Part shown: piece after piece, positions 37,095 to 51,320 of the stretch
Position numbering within the stretch: position 1 is the first letter of the stretch
Layout of the letters: each line of letters starts with the position of its first letter
Assembly: GCA_030427245.1 (NCBI GenBank)
Contig: JAUHXA010000002.1
Span: forward strand, 1 to 64,000
Direction of reading: 5' to 3'
DNA length: 64,000 nucleotides
From: Bacteroidia bacterium
GTDB taxonomy: Bacteria > Bacteroidota > Bacteroidia > Chitinophagales > UBA2359
Position numbers and translations under genes: made by a program
The notes under the pieces: generated by a model
Database searches by the model: none
What the model was told of the DNA's origin: nothing
The model's input: the letters and a program-made list of their open reading frames with translations, nothing else

Positions 37095-38846
37095 ATGAAA
37101 ACTTATCATCATGTAATTTTTAGAAACTTCAATTGGCAAAACTCTTTTTCTATCTATTTTCTTTTTGCCCTACTACTTATCAGTAGCTTCAATATTTCTG
37201 TATTTGCTCAAAGAACTATTCGACCTCAATCCAATCAAAAAGCACGTGTTTTTAACAACCGAGTTGCTAAGGTTCTTCCCATCAATAACAATACTGAAGA
37301 ATTTAATCCCACTACTCAAAAACGTGAAGTAGTTGAAGCAATGGTTGAATTGCCTTTCCACAAAACGGCTCAAAAAGTGAACGTTGAATTGGTGGACGGT
37401 ATGGCAATTATGGAAGGAGACATCGTATTAGGTCCCGCCATATTGTTCAATCCCGATGTTCAGGCTTCTGTCGTAATCAAAGGCAACAATTTTAGATGGC
37501 CAAATGGCAGAGTTCCGTATGTAATCAGCGGCAATCACCCCAAAACACAAACCATCTTGGATGCCATAGCTCATGTCAATGAAAAAACCAATGTCTGTGT
37601 TATTCCTCGCACAAATGAGCAAGATTACATCAAATTTGTCTATAAATCAGGTTGTTGGTCAATGGTCGGTCGTCAAGGTGGCGAACAAGAAATCAGCATT
37701 GGCAGCGGTTGTGGCTTTGGCGCAGCCGTTCACGAAATCTGTCATGCGATTGGAGCTTGGCACGAGCAATCTCGTGGAGACAGAGACAATCATGTTACGA
37801 TTCACTGGGAAAACATCAAAGAAGATAAAAAACACAACTTCAATAAGCACTCCGCAGATGGCATAGACATTGGCAGCTATGATTTTGGTTCGATTATGCA
37901 CTATGGAGCAACTGCTTTTAGTAAAAATGGTAAGCCTACCATCAGTAGTAAAGTGGCGGGCAAAACCCTTGGACAACGTACAGCATTGAGCGCAAAAGAC
38001 ATTGCAGGAATCAAGGCAATTTACCCAAATTCGGTGGGTTGTGGAACTGATATTTCTTGGGTTTCGCATCACGGTATGACTTCTGCCGAATATCAAAAGA
38101 AATTCAATCAATATGTCGGTCAAAGCAAAATGACCTTGACCCATGTAAGCGGCTACAATGTGAATGGCAAAGATTACTACGCTGCAATATGGGAAAAACA
38201 AAACAATCCTCCAGCATGGGTCGCTCGACATGCCATGACTTCTGCCCAATACCAAGCCGAATTCAATAAATGGACAAAAGCAGGTTATCGCCCCACAACA
38301 GTAAGCGGATACAGCGTGGGCAACTCTGCCAGATATGCAGCAATTTTCAGAAAAGTATCAGGTGGTGCATGGGTCGCTCGACACGGTTTGACGTCGGCTC
38401 AATATCAAACAGAGTTCAACAAATGGACGAAAGCGGGTTATAGCCCTGTGGTTTTGAGTGGTTATGGTGTAGCAGGAAAGGATTACTATGCCGTGGTTTT
38501 TGAGAAAAAATCTGGCGGGGCATGGGTAGCCCGACACGGTTTGACGTCGGCTCAATACCAAGCAGAATTCAATAAATGGACAAAAGCGGGTTATCGCACC
38601 GTGAATGTGAGTGGCTACTATGCCAATGGCAGCGATAGATATGCAGTTCTTTTTGAGAAAAAATCTGGCGGGGCATGGGTTGCTCGACACGGTTTGACTT
38701 CCAGTCAATACCAAGCTGAGTTTAACAAAAACAGCAGATCAGGCTATGAATTGATAGATGTAAGTGGTTATTCAAAAGGTAGTAGTTCGAGATATGCTGC
38801 AATCTGGCAGAAACCTTCAAATAGATTTGCATTGAAGAGGAAGTAG
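37095..38846 (+). CDS. Secreted astacin (M12A) metalloprotease with five BTRD1 repeats
   Basis: 583 residues. A signal peptide ends near residue 38 (FNISVFAQ). The propeptide (40-130) contains the MEGDIVLGP segment typical of astacin-like pro-regions. The catalytic domain (about 130-312) has the zinc motif HEICHAIGAWHE at 213-224 and the Met-turn SIMHY at 266-270, so it should be active. From residue 320 to 575 there are five repeats of about 51 residues with the pattern WVARHGLTSAQYQAEFN...GYxxxxVSGY...RYAAIWxK, matching the bacterial tandem repeat domain BTRD1. The repeats probably bind substrate or surface polymers. Repeats 3-5 are the most alike. It has no sorting domain of type IX secretion. 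Confidence 0.92.
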   Translation: MKTYHHVIFRNFNWQNSFSIYFLFALLLISSFNISVFAQRTIRPQSNQKARVFNNRVAKVLPINNNTEEFNPTTQKREVVEAMVELPFHKTAQKVNVELVDGMAIMEGDIVLGPAILFNPDVQASVVIKGNNFRWPNGRVPYVISGNHPKTQTILDAIAHVNEKTNVCVIPRTNEQDYIKFVYKSGCWSMVGRQGGEQEISIGSGCGFGAAVHEICHAIGAWHEQSRGDRDNHVTIHWENIKEDKKHNFNKHSADGIDIGSYDFGSIMHYGATAFSKNGKPTISSKVAGKTLGQRTALSAKDIAGIKAIYPNSVGCGTDISWVSHHGMTSAEYQKKFNQYVGQSKMTLTHVSGYNVNGKDYYAAIWEKQNNPPAWVARHAMTSAQYQAEFNKWTKAGYRPTTVSGYSVGNSARYAAIFRKVSGGAWVARHGLTSAQYQTEFNKWTKAGYSPVVLSGYGVAGKDYYAVVFEKKSGGAWVARHGLTSAQYQAEFNKWTKAGYRTVNVSGYYANGSDRYAVLFEKKSGGAWVARHGLTSSQYQAEFNKNSRSGYELIDVSGYSKGSSSRYAAIWQKPSNRFALKRK

Positions 38847-43450: not shown

Positions 43451-45271
43451 ATGAATTATTCGAGAATTGCAGTGGTTTATTTGCTCCTTCTTCAAGTTTG
43501 TTTTGCATTGAAGGCACAAACAAATACTTATCAGCACCCATTTGCCTTTCCAAATTTTGGTGTTGGAGGATGTTATACTATTTGTATCAAAGAAAAAAGC
43601 GATTTGAGTGCCGAAGAAAGGAATTTTTTGAAGGAAAACCTACTTCGATTCAGCCCGATGGCATACACTCACAAAAAGAAAACTCGAAAGAAGATATTAA
43701 GATTTGGAGTAAAGAGGCGCAAAAGTGATACGCCACTTACAAAAAAGGACGAAAAGAAAAAGAGGCAAATTACCTATTCTTCACCCGTTATTCCCTATAC
43801 AACGGGTGAACCTATTCGCAAAATTTGGAAACTGACACCTTCCCAAGAAAACTGTTTGTCTATGTCTTCAGAGAACTGCATGACTTGGTGTTTGGAACAG
43901 CGCAACCCGAAAGTGAACAATTATGACCATCCTGTATCTCCAAACGAATCTCACCCCAATAATCTACCTGAAGGTTGGTATGTGGATTTTAACGATGAGT
44001 TGGAAAGTTATGAAGAATGGGTAATTCCGCCCATTGTCCAGAAATACGAATACTTTGAAGAAGTGATTCCTCCTTCAGAAGTAGTGATTGTGTTGAAGAG
44101 TGATAATTTGGACGAAAAACAAATGGCATATAGCATTGCAGAAGGCATGACAGGTTGGGTGCGGACAAGTCCCTGTTTGGAGCATGGAAAGTTATGGAAT
44201 GACATTCAGAAATCGTTGGAGTTGAGAGGTTATAAAATGGTTTCATCTCAGCCACAATCTGACCATGATTACCAAAAACAACAAGACACCCTTGAAGCGA
44301 TTACTGATGCTTATCTAAAAACGAAAGGTTGGAACAACAAATATTTGGATTATGAAGCATTGGAGTTGTTGGGTATCAACTCTTTTGAGAAAGATACGCT
44401 ATTTGCTTTTGGTGATTCTACTTCGATTCAGAATAGTAAAGGGTTGTTGTTTTTTCATGTGATTCCGCCTTATGATATACCACCCAACGAAGCCCGTATC
44501 TTGAAATCCCCATTTTCTACTCCCAATGACGATTCTATCAAATACTATAAACTTTTGAGAGATGCTCTGGTAGAAAACTTACAGCCTCCAAGAATGGCAT
44601 TTGACACGATATTTGAAAAAGTATGGATAAGAAAGGGAATAAAAACGGAGAAAAAGAACAAGGTGAAAAGGAAAGACTTCAAAAAAATAACTTGGGAAAA
44701 TCAACGACAACAATTGCTGTATCAGCACTCTTATTATCAAGGTAATTTTGAATCAAAAGGTTGTTGGGAATCGTGTGTGCGCTCTATTGACAAAAGCCTA
44801 ATACTCAAATACACTGAATATCCTGCAAAATACAAAACCTTCAATATCGAAATATTGGACGAATCCAGCTTGCCAACTTACTGCAAAACAGATAGCGTAC
44901 TACAAGAAAATGAAAAATGGGTTCTCGCTCCAAAATTTGAGGTTTTTCCGATATACAAGCCCAAAACCTCCAAAGCGAAAATTCCATTGATACCTGTACC
45001 GAGTGATGAAGCAGATTTTTTCCACCATTTTATCAACAAATATTCTCGTGATTGGGTAGAAATTCAACAGCCTTGCTGCATACCCGCAAAACCTAAACGC
45101 ATACCAGCTATTGAAATGAAACTAAAAGAAAAAGGTTATTACAAAGGCAAAGTCAGAGGGGTACTTAGTGAGGAATTGAAAGAAGCAATCATCAAGTTTC
45201 AAAAGGATAATAAACTCCCTGTTGGTCAGATAAATATCGACACATTGAGAGCTTTAGAAATCGAGTACTGA
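43451..45271 (+). CDS. Exported peptidoglycan-binding protein with internal duplication and Cx3C modules
   Basis: 606 residues with a signal peptide (1-22, VCFALKAQ). The C-terminus (553-606, IEMKLKEKGYYKGKVRGVLS) is a PG_binding_1 domain, which binds peptidoglycan. I see a degenerate second copy at about 252-309 (IQKSLELRGYKM ... YLDYEALELLGI). Each is preceded by a similar set: a Cx3C pair (Cys143/147 and Cys438/442), a WVxxP segment (EEWVIPP; EKWVLAP) and a Pro-Cys (SPC241-242; QPCC). An extra Cx3C (GGCYTIC, 41-45) stands at the N-terminus. The protein thus looks like two tandem modules of about 170 residues. Similar Cx3C-plus-PG_binding proteins occur in Bacteroidota from memory. Function is unknown; a cell-wall-bound envelope protein is inferred. 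Confidence 0.75.
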   Translation: MNYSRIAVVYLLLLQVCFALKAQTNTYQHPFAFPNFGVGGCYTICIKEKSDLSAEERNFLKENLLRFSPMAYTHKKKTRKKILRFGVKRRKSDTPLTKKDEKKKRQITYSSPVIPYTTGEPIRKIWKLTPSQENCLSMSSENCMTWCLEQRNPKVNNYDHPVSPNESHPNNLPEGWYVDFNDELESYEEWVIPPIVQKYEYFEEVIPPSEVVIVLKSDNLDEKQMAYSIAEGMTGWVRTSPCLEHGKLWNDIQKSLELRGYKMVSSQPQSDHDYQKQQDTLEAITDAYLKTKGWNNKYLDYEALELLGINSFEKDTLFAFGDSTSIQNSKGLLFFHVIPPYDIPPNEARILKSPFSTPNDDSIKYYKLLRDALVENLQPPRMAFDTIFEKVWIRKGIKTEKKNKVKRKDFKKITWENQRQQLLYQHSYYQGNFESKGCWESCVRSIDKSLILKYTEYPAKYKTFNIEILDESSLPTYCKTDSVLQENEKWVLAPKFEVFPIYKPKTSKAKIPLIPVPSDEADFFHHFINKYSRDWVEIQQPCCIPAKPKRIPAIEMKLKEKGYYKGKVRGVLSEELKEAIIKFQKDNKLPVGQINIDTLRALEIEY

Positions 45272-48935: not shown

Positions 48936-51320
48936 CTATCTCTGAATAGCAATTTTCTTCACCACATTGCTACCTTCAAATTCCAATCTCACAAAATACA
49001 TCCCAACAGGCACTTCCGAAACATCTATGCTGTTACCGTTTATCTTGGCTTCGGTCATATTTTTACCCACAAGATTGTACAAATGAACAGTAAACGGACT
49101 ATTCACATCCGATACAATGTTAATCAAAGTATTTGCAGGATTCGGGTACATACGAATTTTGCCTTCTAAAAAAACATCATTGATAGACGACACCATCTCA
49201 TCATTTTGAACACCTGGAGTTCCTTTTTGTCCGCCTTCTTCATCATACGTAAGCGTAGAAAAAGACCAGTTTTCAGGTCGGTTGTTGCCTTCTGCGGTCA
49301 TCGCCATCGGATCTACCTTCAACATAAAGGTAACTTTGGAAGAACTTCCTGCTGGGGGAATGCCTATTGGAGCAGTATTGTCCATGCAATCACCAGAATC
49401 TTCATTGCCAATGTATTCACCATAACCATAATCGTAGCGTACTTCATCTACCAATGAACCATCTGCTTTCGCAATGATTACGCCATCAGGACAAGAAGTA
49501 TCTCCTTCGTCGGCATAGCTACTTTCGTTGTTGAAGCTTGGTTTTTTATAGTCGTAAAAGTAATCAAACACTACTCCTCCTTGTGCTTCTGGAATATTGA
49601 AGCCAGAGAAAACCGCATAGGATTTTGGGGCAAGGGTAAAGCTGCCAATCGTAGAAACATTGGAAGAACTCGATGCATCCGTCAATGTCCAACCATCCAT
49701 AACGATAGGTTCGTTGGTCGTATTATAGACTTCAAACCATTCGGTGTGTCCTTCATTTGGAGAAGTGTCTGCTCCGTCAGGATTGTTGGGAAGGGCAGCC
49801 GCCAATTGTTCATCCGTAGGTTTTTGTGGTCGGTTGTGGTATTCGGTGATAATCACCTCACCAGAACCAAAATCAGCAGGATTTGGAGGCAAACTACCGT
49901 CATTTGCCAAACCTGGCGTTCCTACTTGGTTGTTTTCTTCATCATATACAATCGTAGAGAAAGTCCAGTTTTCAGCCTTATCGTTCTCTCTGGAGTTCAT
50001 AACCATAGGATCTACCTTCAACATAAATGTAACTTTGGAAGAACTTCCTGCTGGAGGAATGCCTATTGGAGCGGTATTGTCCATGCAATCACCAGAATCT
50101 TCATTGCCAATGTATTCGCCATAGCCATAATCGTAGCGTACTGCGTCCACCAAAGAACCATCTGCTTTTGCAATGATTACACCATCGGGACAAGAAGTAT
50201 CTCCTTCGTCGGCATAGCTGCTTTCGTTGTTGAAGCTTGGTTTTTTGTAGTCATAGAAGTAGTCAAACACGACACCGCCTTGCGCTTCTGGGATATTGAA
50301 GCCAGAAAAAACCGCATAGGATTTTGGGGCAAGGGTGAAGCTCGTAATGGTGGAAACATTAGAGGAACTTGAGGCATCTGTCAATGTCCAACCATCCATC
50401 ACGATAGGTTCGTTGGTCGTATTATAGACTTCAAACCATTCAGTGTGTCCTTCGTTTGGCGAAGTATCTGCTCCGTCAGGATTGTTTGGGAGAGCGGCAG
50501 CCAATTGTTCGTCCGTAGGTTTTTGTGGTCGGTTGTGGTATTCGGTGATAATCACCTCACCAGAACCATAATCAACAGGTTCGCCCACACTGCCATCATT
50601 TGCCAAGCCTGGTGTTCCTTTTTGGTTATTTTCTTCATCATACACAATCGTAGAAAAGGTCCAGTTTTCAGGTCGGTCATTCGCTTCTGCATTCATGACG
50701 GTAGCATCTACTTTCAACATGAAGGAAACCTTAGAAGAGCTTCCCGATGAAGGAATACCGATTGCTGCTGTATTTTCCGAACAATCAGGAGAATCTGGAT
50801 TACCAATGTATTCGCCATAGCCATAATCGTAGCGCACTTCATCCACCAATGAACCATCTGCTTTCGCAATGATTACGCCATCAGGACAAGAAGTGTCTCC
50901 TTCATCGGCATAGCTGCTTTCGTTGTTGAAGCTTGGTTTTTTGTAGTCGTAGAAGTAGTCAAACACGACACCGCCTTGCGCTTCTGGGATATTGAATCCA
51001 GAAAAAACCGCATAGGATTTTGGGGCAAGGGTGAAGCTCGTAATGGTGGAAACATTAGAGGAACTTGAGGCATCCGTAAGCGTCCAGCCATCCATGACTA
51101 CGGGTTCGTTGGTCGTGTTATAGACTTCAAACCATTCCGTGTGTCCTTCATTTGGAGAAGTGTCTGCGCCATCTGGATTGTTGGGCAGAGCCGCCGCTAA
51201 CTGTTCGTCAGTCGGTTTTTGTGGTCGATTGTAATATTCGGTAATGATTACCTCTCCTGAGCCTTGACCAAAGGCACTTGCAGAGAGCAAAAGTAATAAA
51301 GTGAGTAAGTAAAATCTCAT
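48936..51320 (-). CDS. Triple lamin-tail-domain protein with type IX secretion sorting domain
   Basis: 794 residues: signal peptide (1-19, LLLLLSASAFGQ), three repeats of about 233 residues (20-251, 252-484, 485 to about 715) and a C-terminal sorting domain (about 720-794, IRMYPNPANTLINIVSD ... SNVVKKIAIQR). Each repeat contains the lamin-tail signature VIITEYHNRPQ, EWFEVYNTTNEP, DGWTLTD and LAPKSYAVFSG, followed by a second region with DGVIIAKADGSLVD and SSSKVTFMLKVDP. There is no catalytic domain. It should be exported by type IX secretion and anchored or released at the surface. The repeats are near-identical and equal to those fused to the PL6 lyase in the next gene upstream. Likely role: adhesion or polymer binding. 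I infer, but cannot show, that it binds the lyase substrate. Confidence 0.88.
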   Translation of the reverse strand: MRFYLLTLLLLLSASAFGQGSGEVIITEYYNRPQKPTDEQLAAALPNNPDGADTSPNEGHTEWFEVYNTTNEPVVMDGWTLTDASSSSNVSTITSFTLAPKSYAVFSGFNIPEAQGGVVFDYFYDYKKPSFNNESSYADEGDTSCPDGVIIAKADGSLVDEVRYDYGYGEYIGNPDSPDCSENTAAIGIPSSGSSSKVSFMLKVDATVMNAEANDRPENWTFSTIVYDEENNQKGTPGLANDGSVGEPVDYGSGEVIITEYHNRPQKPTDEQLAAALPNNPDGADTSPNEGHTEWFEVYNTTNEPIVMDGWTLTDASSSSNVSTITSFTLAPKSYAVFSGFNIPEAQGGVVFDYFYDYKKPSFNNESSYADEGDTSCPDGVIIAKADGSLVDAVRYDYGYGEYIGNEDSGDCMDNTAPIGIPPAGSSSKVTFMLKVDPMVMNSRENDKAENWTFSTIVYDEENNQVGTPGLANDGSLPPNPADFGSGEVIITEYHNRPQKPTDEQLAAALPNNPDGADTSPNEGHTEWFEVYNTTNEPIVMDGWTLTDASSSSNVSTIGSFTLAPKSYAVFSGFNIPEAQGGVVFDYFYDYKKPSFNNESSYADEGDTSCPDGVIIAKADGSLVDEVRYDYGYGEYIGNEDSGDCMDNTAPIGIPPAGSSSKVTFMLKVDPMAMTAEGNNRPENWSFSTLTYDEEGGQKGTPGVQNDEMVSSINDVFLEGKIRMYPNPANTLINIVSDVNSPFTVHLYNLVGKNMTEAKINGNSIDVSEVPVGMYFVRLEFEGSNVVKKIAIQR
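49180..51263. repeat. Three tandem ~700-bp DNA repeats encoding lamin-tail domains
   Basis: Units run about 51263-50568, 50567-49869 and 49868-49180. Long blocks differ by only one or two bases: about 50275-50375 and 50972-51070 are almost identical, while other blocks match the third unit better, giving a mosaic. Such a pattern points to recent duplication and gene conversion. Confidence 0.85.

Follow-up and report, generated by a model that had tools for sequence, protein, structure and literature searches.

The gene at 43451..45271 (+) of the window, the whole 64,000-nucleotide stretch of DNA that was analysed, encodes a protein in which cysteine pairs of the form Cx3C recur ahead of a C-terminal peptidoglycan (PG)-binding domain. 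It raises the question of which module lies between these cysteines and the PG-binding domain, and whether the protein contains it twice. By whole-unit homology the protein is a divergent offshoot of an unnamed Bacteroidota family, called the CYAKC family here, and not a canonical member; of this family, the Pfam and NCBIfam libraries have the anchor domain alone. Its members are built in the order signal peptide, C1YAKC2, N-arm, tip C3x7C4x3C5, C-arm, WxExxC6 and PG_binding_1. The features of the 606-aa protein are as follows, with the cysteines numbered by this scheme.

43451..45271, +, whole gene of the two-unit CYAKC family member, 606 aa
43451..43516, +, signal peptide predicted from the sequence, N-terminal hydrophobic stretch, residues 1-22
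43571..43585, +, base of unit 1, C1/C2 = C41/C45
43586..43852, +, N-arm of unit 1, residues 46-134, 89 aa, repeats worn off
43853..43891, +, tip of unit 1, C3, C4 and C5 = C135, C143 and C147
43892..44173, +, C-arm of unit 1 (residues 148-241, 94 aa), carrying WVIPP at 190-194
44174..44176, +, C6 of unit 1 = C242
44183..44380, +, decayed PG_binding_1-like domain of unit 1, residues 245-310 (about 245-312)
44387..44761, +, linker and worn N-arm of unit 2, residues 313-437, without a CYAKC motif
44762..44776, +, C438/C442, with C442 at the C3 place, C438 extra, and C4 and C5 missing
44777..45073, +, C-arm of unit 2 (residues 443-541), carrying PAKYKTF, WVLAP at 490-494 and a further cysteine, C478
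45074..45079, +, C542/C543, one of the two being C6 of unit 2
45083..45268, +, PG_binding_1 domain of unit 2, residues 545-606

The ORF is confirmed, with 606 aa and no internal stops. Its cysteines are at residues 17, 41/45, 135, 143/147, 242, 438/442, 478 and 542/543. Signal cleavage is expected before QT, matching the AQ of relatives, which is nearly invariant in the family alignment. The preceding gene encodes an ABC transporter ATPase and the following one a DUF502 protein. Since both are on the opposite strand and apparently unrelated, the gene is most likely its own transcription unit. A viral origin was considered and rejected: none of the 29 pattern matches from viral contigs were relatives, there were zero matches among 50,697 phage records, and no PHROG was found for the protein. 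The window also contains two other repeat proteins. One (48936-51320, -) has a Lamin Tail Domain unit in three close tandem copies (LTD, three stretches) and a Por_Secre_tail, and the other (37095-38846, +) has five BTRD1 (polyglycine hydrolase-like) repeats fused to an astacin-type metalloprotease.

The two units of the 606-aa protein

The three Cx3C pairs, two Pro-Cys (241-242 and 541-542) and two WVxxP segments (190-194 and 490-494) listed in the first-pass annotation are all present in the sequence. The two-fold repeat that it proposed from them holds in that there are two units, which are seen only via relatives, but its register holds only in part. The proposed self-alignment of residues 130-310 against 430-606 gave a score of 42 (shuffled mean 32.4, SD 5.5), which 6.4% of 1000 shuffles reached, and the aligned part was one 46-column piece around WVxxP. 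Residues 240-310 against 535-606 scored 23, the same as shuffles. Unit 1 compared directly with unit 2 scored 49, out of register, and this was reached by 23/500 shuffles. The alignments do not support treating the pairs 143/147 and 438/442 as equivalents; in alignments with L039 and the family C442 is at the place of C135 (C3), and when PAKY is used as the anchor, unit 2 has residues other than cysteine where C4 and C5 would be. The N-terminal pair 41/45, described as lone, is the ordinary start of unit 1, which begins there and not at 143.

The units become visible through comparison with relatives. With the first 385 residues as query, CYAKC members were found in 8/20 genomes of the taxonomic family, own genome included, the best non-self match having an E-value of 3.7e-7 over residues 8-276. 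L039, which has one unit in 327 aa and comes from another genus of the same taxonomic family, scores 136 against unit 1 and 150 against unit 2, with maxima over 500 shuffles of 57 and 58, respectively; the WVxxP motif is common to L039 and the 606-aa protein. In an alignment with 40 members, the six cysteines of unit 1 sit in the six invariant cysteine columns, and the arms of this unit are near-equal at 89 and 94 aa. Unit 2 is alignable to the family from about residue 384 and has cysteines at the C3 and C6 places only, those of C1, C2, C4 and C5 being lost. The 23-aa repeats of the family are worn away in both units, with PAKYKTF in unit 2 as the sole clear remnant. These comparisons indicate that the internal repeat is real but old.

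This arrangement is rare. Searches of 98 other relatives, of 19 further genomes of the taxonomic family (with the first half as the query) and of 395 further genomes of the order, three sets that overlap, found no full-length two-unit relative. Among the ORFs collected, L136 is the only other protein with cysteines and two PG-binding domains. This protein (1501-2358, -) has 286 aa in a tandem double unit with short arms and belongs to another family of the order; its doubling is most likely independent of that in the 606-aa protein.

The C-terminal PG-binding domain is clear, as first described, with a PF01471 match at residues 553-602 (E 2.4e-8; 34.5 bits, above the Pfam gathering cut-off of 23). 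This is the only Pfam match on the protein, and NCBIfam likewise matches PG-binding parts alone. The decayed first domain, originally given as residues 252-309 and placed here at about 245-312, is recovered by the family's own profile but not by Pfam, which found no second PF01471 stretch at 245-312. A profile of the family's PG-binding tails gave the stretch after C242 a score of 16.3 bits, the best shuffle reaching 9.7 (2000 shuffles, of which 1764 got a score), and the whole-family profile gave 5.0 bits vs 3.2 for the best of 500 shuffles. With the tail profile, both of the worn arms of unit 1 scored below zero. A PG-binding domain comes directly after C6 in each unit, clear in unit 2 and decayed in unit 1. 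Structural support for the decayed domain was dropped. The AlphaFold2 model of unit 1 is weak (pLDDT 57.7), a PG-binding structure is absent among its 48 Foldseek matches, and the VIA-align row for the MMP-1 prodomain (Z 4.0, rmsd 2.0, 47 aligned) ranks under unrelated Prp8 rows (Z 4.1-5.3).

PG_binding_1 (PF01471) proteins such as SltB3, SleB and CtpB share the domain that the 606-aa protein has at its C-terminus. In the model of a canonical CYAKC member this domain superposes on that of SltB3 (5anz) with a Z of 6.4 and 1.9 A over 58 residues. The 606-aa protein differs from these proteins in having no enzyme domain and in carrying the six-cysteine two-arm module in front.

Make-up and distribution of the CYAKC family

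The module that the first reading could not name, located between the cysteine pairs and the PG-binding domain, is indeed unnamed in Pfam and NCBIfam, and no entry in Pfam, NCBIfam or the PDB sequences lies over the CYAKC arms. Among the papers listed in literature searches, none deals with the family as judged by its title and the opening part of its abstract. The family is called undescribed here in the sense of being absent from these searches and from the family libraries named.

The arms of canonical members consist of 23-aa repeats, PAxYETVTEQV in the N-arm and PAEYKTVTKQV in the C-arm, with between 3 and more than 20 repeats in each arm. The genome that carries the 606-aa gene also encodes four ordinary one-unit paralogues of about 320-360 aa with a PG-binding domain, two of them in tandem on contig C125, and a profile search found a fifth of 258 aa without the anchor. 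All five have a signal peptide, CYAKC or CYKKC, two arms, a three-Cys tip and a WVE..C ending. In the four anchored paralogues the first arm has repeats like PAxYETVTEQVLVKEAS and is followed by the tip CLSxNPEDCxVWCLxExPA; the second arm has repeats like PAEYKTVTKQVLxSPATT, then GGFTxWVEVLC and PG_binding_1. The six cysteines are invariant in 20 aligned members.

Relatives are encoded by 215/227 pattern matches on GTDB r220 contigs. The best 80 of the 215 come mostly from Saprospiraceae and other Chitinophagales MAGs, and the named organisms among these 80 include Saprospira grandis and Aureispira. A family match at E 1e-20 is present in 145/396 genomes of the window's order. At E 1e-15 a match is present in 12/395 genomes drawn from the class, and five of these 12 are in the window's order, own genome included.

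A family member with 74% identity (L053) is on a contig titled as a Nitrosomonas sp. MAG, which is probably mis-binned Bacteroidota DNA. Several relatives depart from the common plan. L169, L171, L073, L076, L040, L062 and L059 end directly after C6 without an anchor; those of L169 and L171 are near an anchored copy on the same contig and are its possible partners. L006 (913-1686, +) and L162 have three PG-binding domains and an N-terminal, lipoprotein-like cysteine, without the two-arm module. L212 (2513-7663, +) is a 1717-aa protein with arms of 800/788 aa, one OmpA inside each arm and PG_binding_1 at the end.

Matched arms and proposed cysteine pairs

The lengths of the two arms, C2-C3 and C5-C6, are closely matched across the family. 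In the 137 six-Cys members whose tail is of PG-binding size the correlation is 0.98, 19 with other or cut tails having been set aside, and it is 0.996 in the 125 of them whose arms lack an OmpA-like HTD[SA] motif. Where OmpA is inserted, the arms no longer match, e.g. 308/435. Examples of arm lengths are 76/75, 99/98, 122/121, 145/153, 168/175, 191/198, 283/290 and 444/452, and the difference is <23 aa (one repeat) in 124/125 members; L155 has a C-arm 53 aa longer than its N-arm. Of the 28 length classes 27 are matched, against 3.8 on average and 13 at most in 10000 permutations of the arms. On a tree of the anchor segment, a quick tree from short joined segments that include the arm ends, 24 changes of repeat number in the N-arm and 23 in the C-arm can be explained by as few as 25 joint ones, which means that almost every change affected both arms.

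Residue covariation between the arms was computed from 113 sequences (109 distinct), i.e. 115 parsed members minus L015, which was misparsed, and L046. It peaks at c-n = +8 counted from the base (z 6.4) and at -9 counted from the tip (z 6.1), neither being reached by any of 200 shuffles, which gives one antiparallel diagonal at each end. A first version with another correction gave z values of 6.2 and 2.4 for base and tip. Because the C-arm is one residue shorter in the commonest class, +8 and -9 are one register. An AlphaFold2 model of the Saprospira grandis member (44 sequences; pLDDT 73.6, pTM 0.47) has N-arm strands mirrored by C-arm strands with i+j = 326, for example 43-54, 57-63 and 66-77 by 272-283, 263-269 and 249-260. 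The register of this model, +7/-8, is one residue off that of the covariation, and its confidence is 75-90 at the base, 70-90 at the tip and 50-60 in mid-arm. Much the same sequences were seen by AlphaFold2, so the modelled pairing is not independent of the covariation. Matches in the PDB beyond the PG-binding domain were weak. A charge zipper between an acidic N-arm and a basic C-arm was also tried; it fits many members, but the N-arm is positive in 42/115 and the idea was rejected.

Loss of cysteines suggests which of them are partners. The family profile matched 187 ORFs, 158 with the six-Cys pattern and 29 without. Of the latter, 12 divergent full-length members were scored by eye and 17 were dropped: 13 that are cut or frame-broken, L014 and L016 with six cysteines and a shorter tip spacing, and L006 and L162, which have only PG-binding domains. 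C1 agrees with C6 in presence or absence in 12/12 (3 double losses), and C3 and C4 agree in 11/12 (4 double losses). Joint loss beyond chance was found for no other cysteine pair among the 12. The p-values of 0.0045 and 0.010 are too optimistic, since possible orthologue pairs are included (L023/L230, 43% identical; L201/L210, 40%). The base, C1xxxC2 LxPDQYETV, resembles the tip, C4xxxC5 LxEVPAQYKTV, so the two staples would be equivalent by pseudo-symmetry, with C2 and C5, one per end, left without a partner. C1 and C6 are both lost in L201 (1741-3801, +), L210 (2-1945, -; read by eye) and L151 (2619-4601, +), in which two-arm modules are fused to VWA/YfbK-type domains.

Taken with the arm data, the unnamed module is most likely a giant two-stranded beta-hairpin, stapled by C1-C6 and C3-C4 and tethered to peptidoglycan. 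The N-arm would run out, turn at the tip C3x7C4x3C5 and return in register as the C-arm, and this register would require an equal number of 23-aa repeats on both arms. Disulphides C1-C6 and C3-C4 would staple the base and the tip. Pairing of the worn arms in the 606-aa protein is an extrapolation from the family, because its PAxYETV repeats are almost gone and the model of unit 1 is poor; the arms may nevertheless continue to pair.

It is also conceivable, though unlikely, that each arm folds on itself as a beta-meander or solenoid and that the two rods lie side by side or stacked, the length match coming from the packing of two sheets. A free two-stranded ribbon of >100 residues is unusual, the 12- and 7-residue strand repeats could form meanders, and the mid-arm confidence of the model is low. 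However, covariation lies on one antiparallel diagonal at base and tip, and the mirrored strand borders in the Saprospira grandis model are those of directly paired strands. Metal binding by the Cx3C pairs, as in a periplasmic metal sensor or carrier, was raised in the first-pass annotation alongside disulphides but is very improbable. The pairs are conserved, but losses couple C1 with C6 and C3 with C4 and not C1 with C2 (agreement in 2/12) or C4 with C5 (7/12), and no metal-binding family reached a meaningful score in Pfam or NCBIfam. The pattern of joint loss therefore fits disulphide staples better than a Cx3C metal site, as far as sequences can tell.

The 606-aa gene itself might be a functionless, decaying paralogue, in view of its lost repeats, the worn first PG-binding domain and the four cysteines lost from unit 2. 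The genomes searched have no full-length relative, and the four ordinary one-unit paralogues with a PG-binding domain are in the same genome. Against this, 606 codons have stayed open without a stop, the C-terminal PG-binding domain is well preserved, all six cysteines of unit 1 are kept, and the worn type is also open as the single-unit gene L039 in another genus. Decay without function is thus rather unlikely. The 606-aa protein is probably an exported, peptidoglycan-tethered structural protein that arose by fusion of two single-unit CYAKC genes followed by strong divergence.

Proposed wall tethering and possible role

The PG_binding_1 domain at the base, or OmpA in other members, would fix the rod to the cell wall. 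Some members have OmpA or nothing after C6; L220 and L228 end in OmpA, L201 ends in VWA, and L151 has PG_binding_1, TonB_C and the start of a vWF_A domain. That one wall-binding domain is replaced by another at this position supports wall tethering as the function common to these proteins. The likeness to OmpA-like (PF00691) proteins is limited to those members with OmpA at the base or inside the arms, where the wall anchor appears swappable; the 606-aa protein has no OmpA domain. In the latter, unit 1 has six cysteines and a decayed anchor, and unit 2 has the anchor and two of the six staple positions. Since only the anchor of unit 2 is kept, the protein would serve as a strut or spacer of two rods, attached through its last domain.

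A role of the family as a periplasmic strut or spacer would be in keeping with the dimensions of the arms. At about 0.33 nm per residue, a ribbon of 99 residues, if straight, would be near 33 nm long, which is about the depth of a periplasm. The G5-E stalks of SasG/Aap and the Rib stalks are wall-anchored, beta-rich rods with variable repeat number, built of consecutive domains on single chains. By description the CYAKC proteins are set apart from them, in that the two arms of one chain are length-matched and seemingly stapled at both ends.

The start of each arm, CxxxC-L-x-x-P-x-x-Y-x-T-V, gives C1=C4, C2=C5 and C3=C6 under pseudo-two-fold symmetry. With C1-C6 and C3-C4 as staples, one unpaired cysteine is left per end (C2 or C5), so joining through C2-C5 is possible. 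Such disulphides could connect ribbons by their ends, or pair them as antiparallel dimers, to build wall-anchored fibres, and the 606-aa protein would be a covalent two-rod version of these. This is a doubtful proposition. As a co-lost pair C2-C5 was rejected, with agreement in 7/12 and joint loss no more than chance, and the link is speculation.

By itself the 606-aa protein is a worn duplicate, and the point of interest is the matched arms of its family. CYAKC proteins form a widespread, undescribed envelope family in which the repeat number on two distant arms evolves in step, and a new Pfam domain could be built for them where Pfam has none now. If the hairpin model is true, this would be a rare and directly testable case of length control by self-pairing. 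The CYAKC proteins are candidate spacers or fibres for the envelope of the filamentous, gliding Saprospiraceae.
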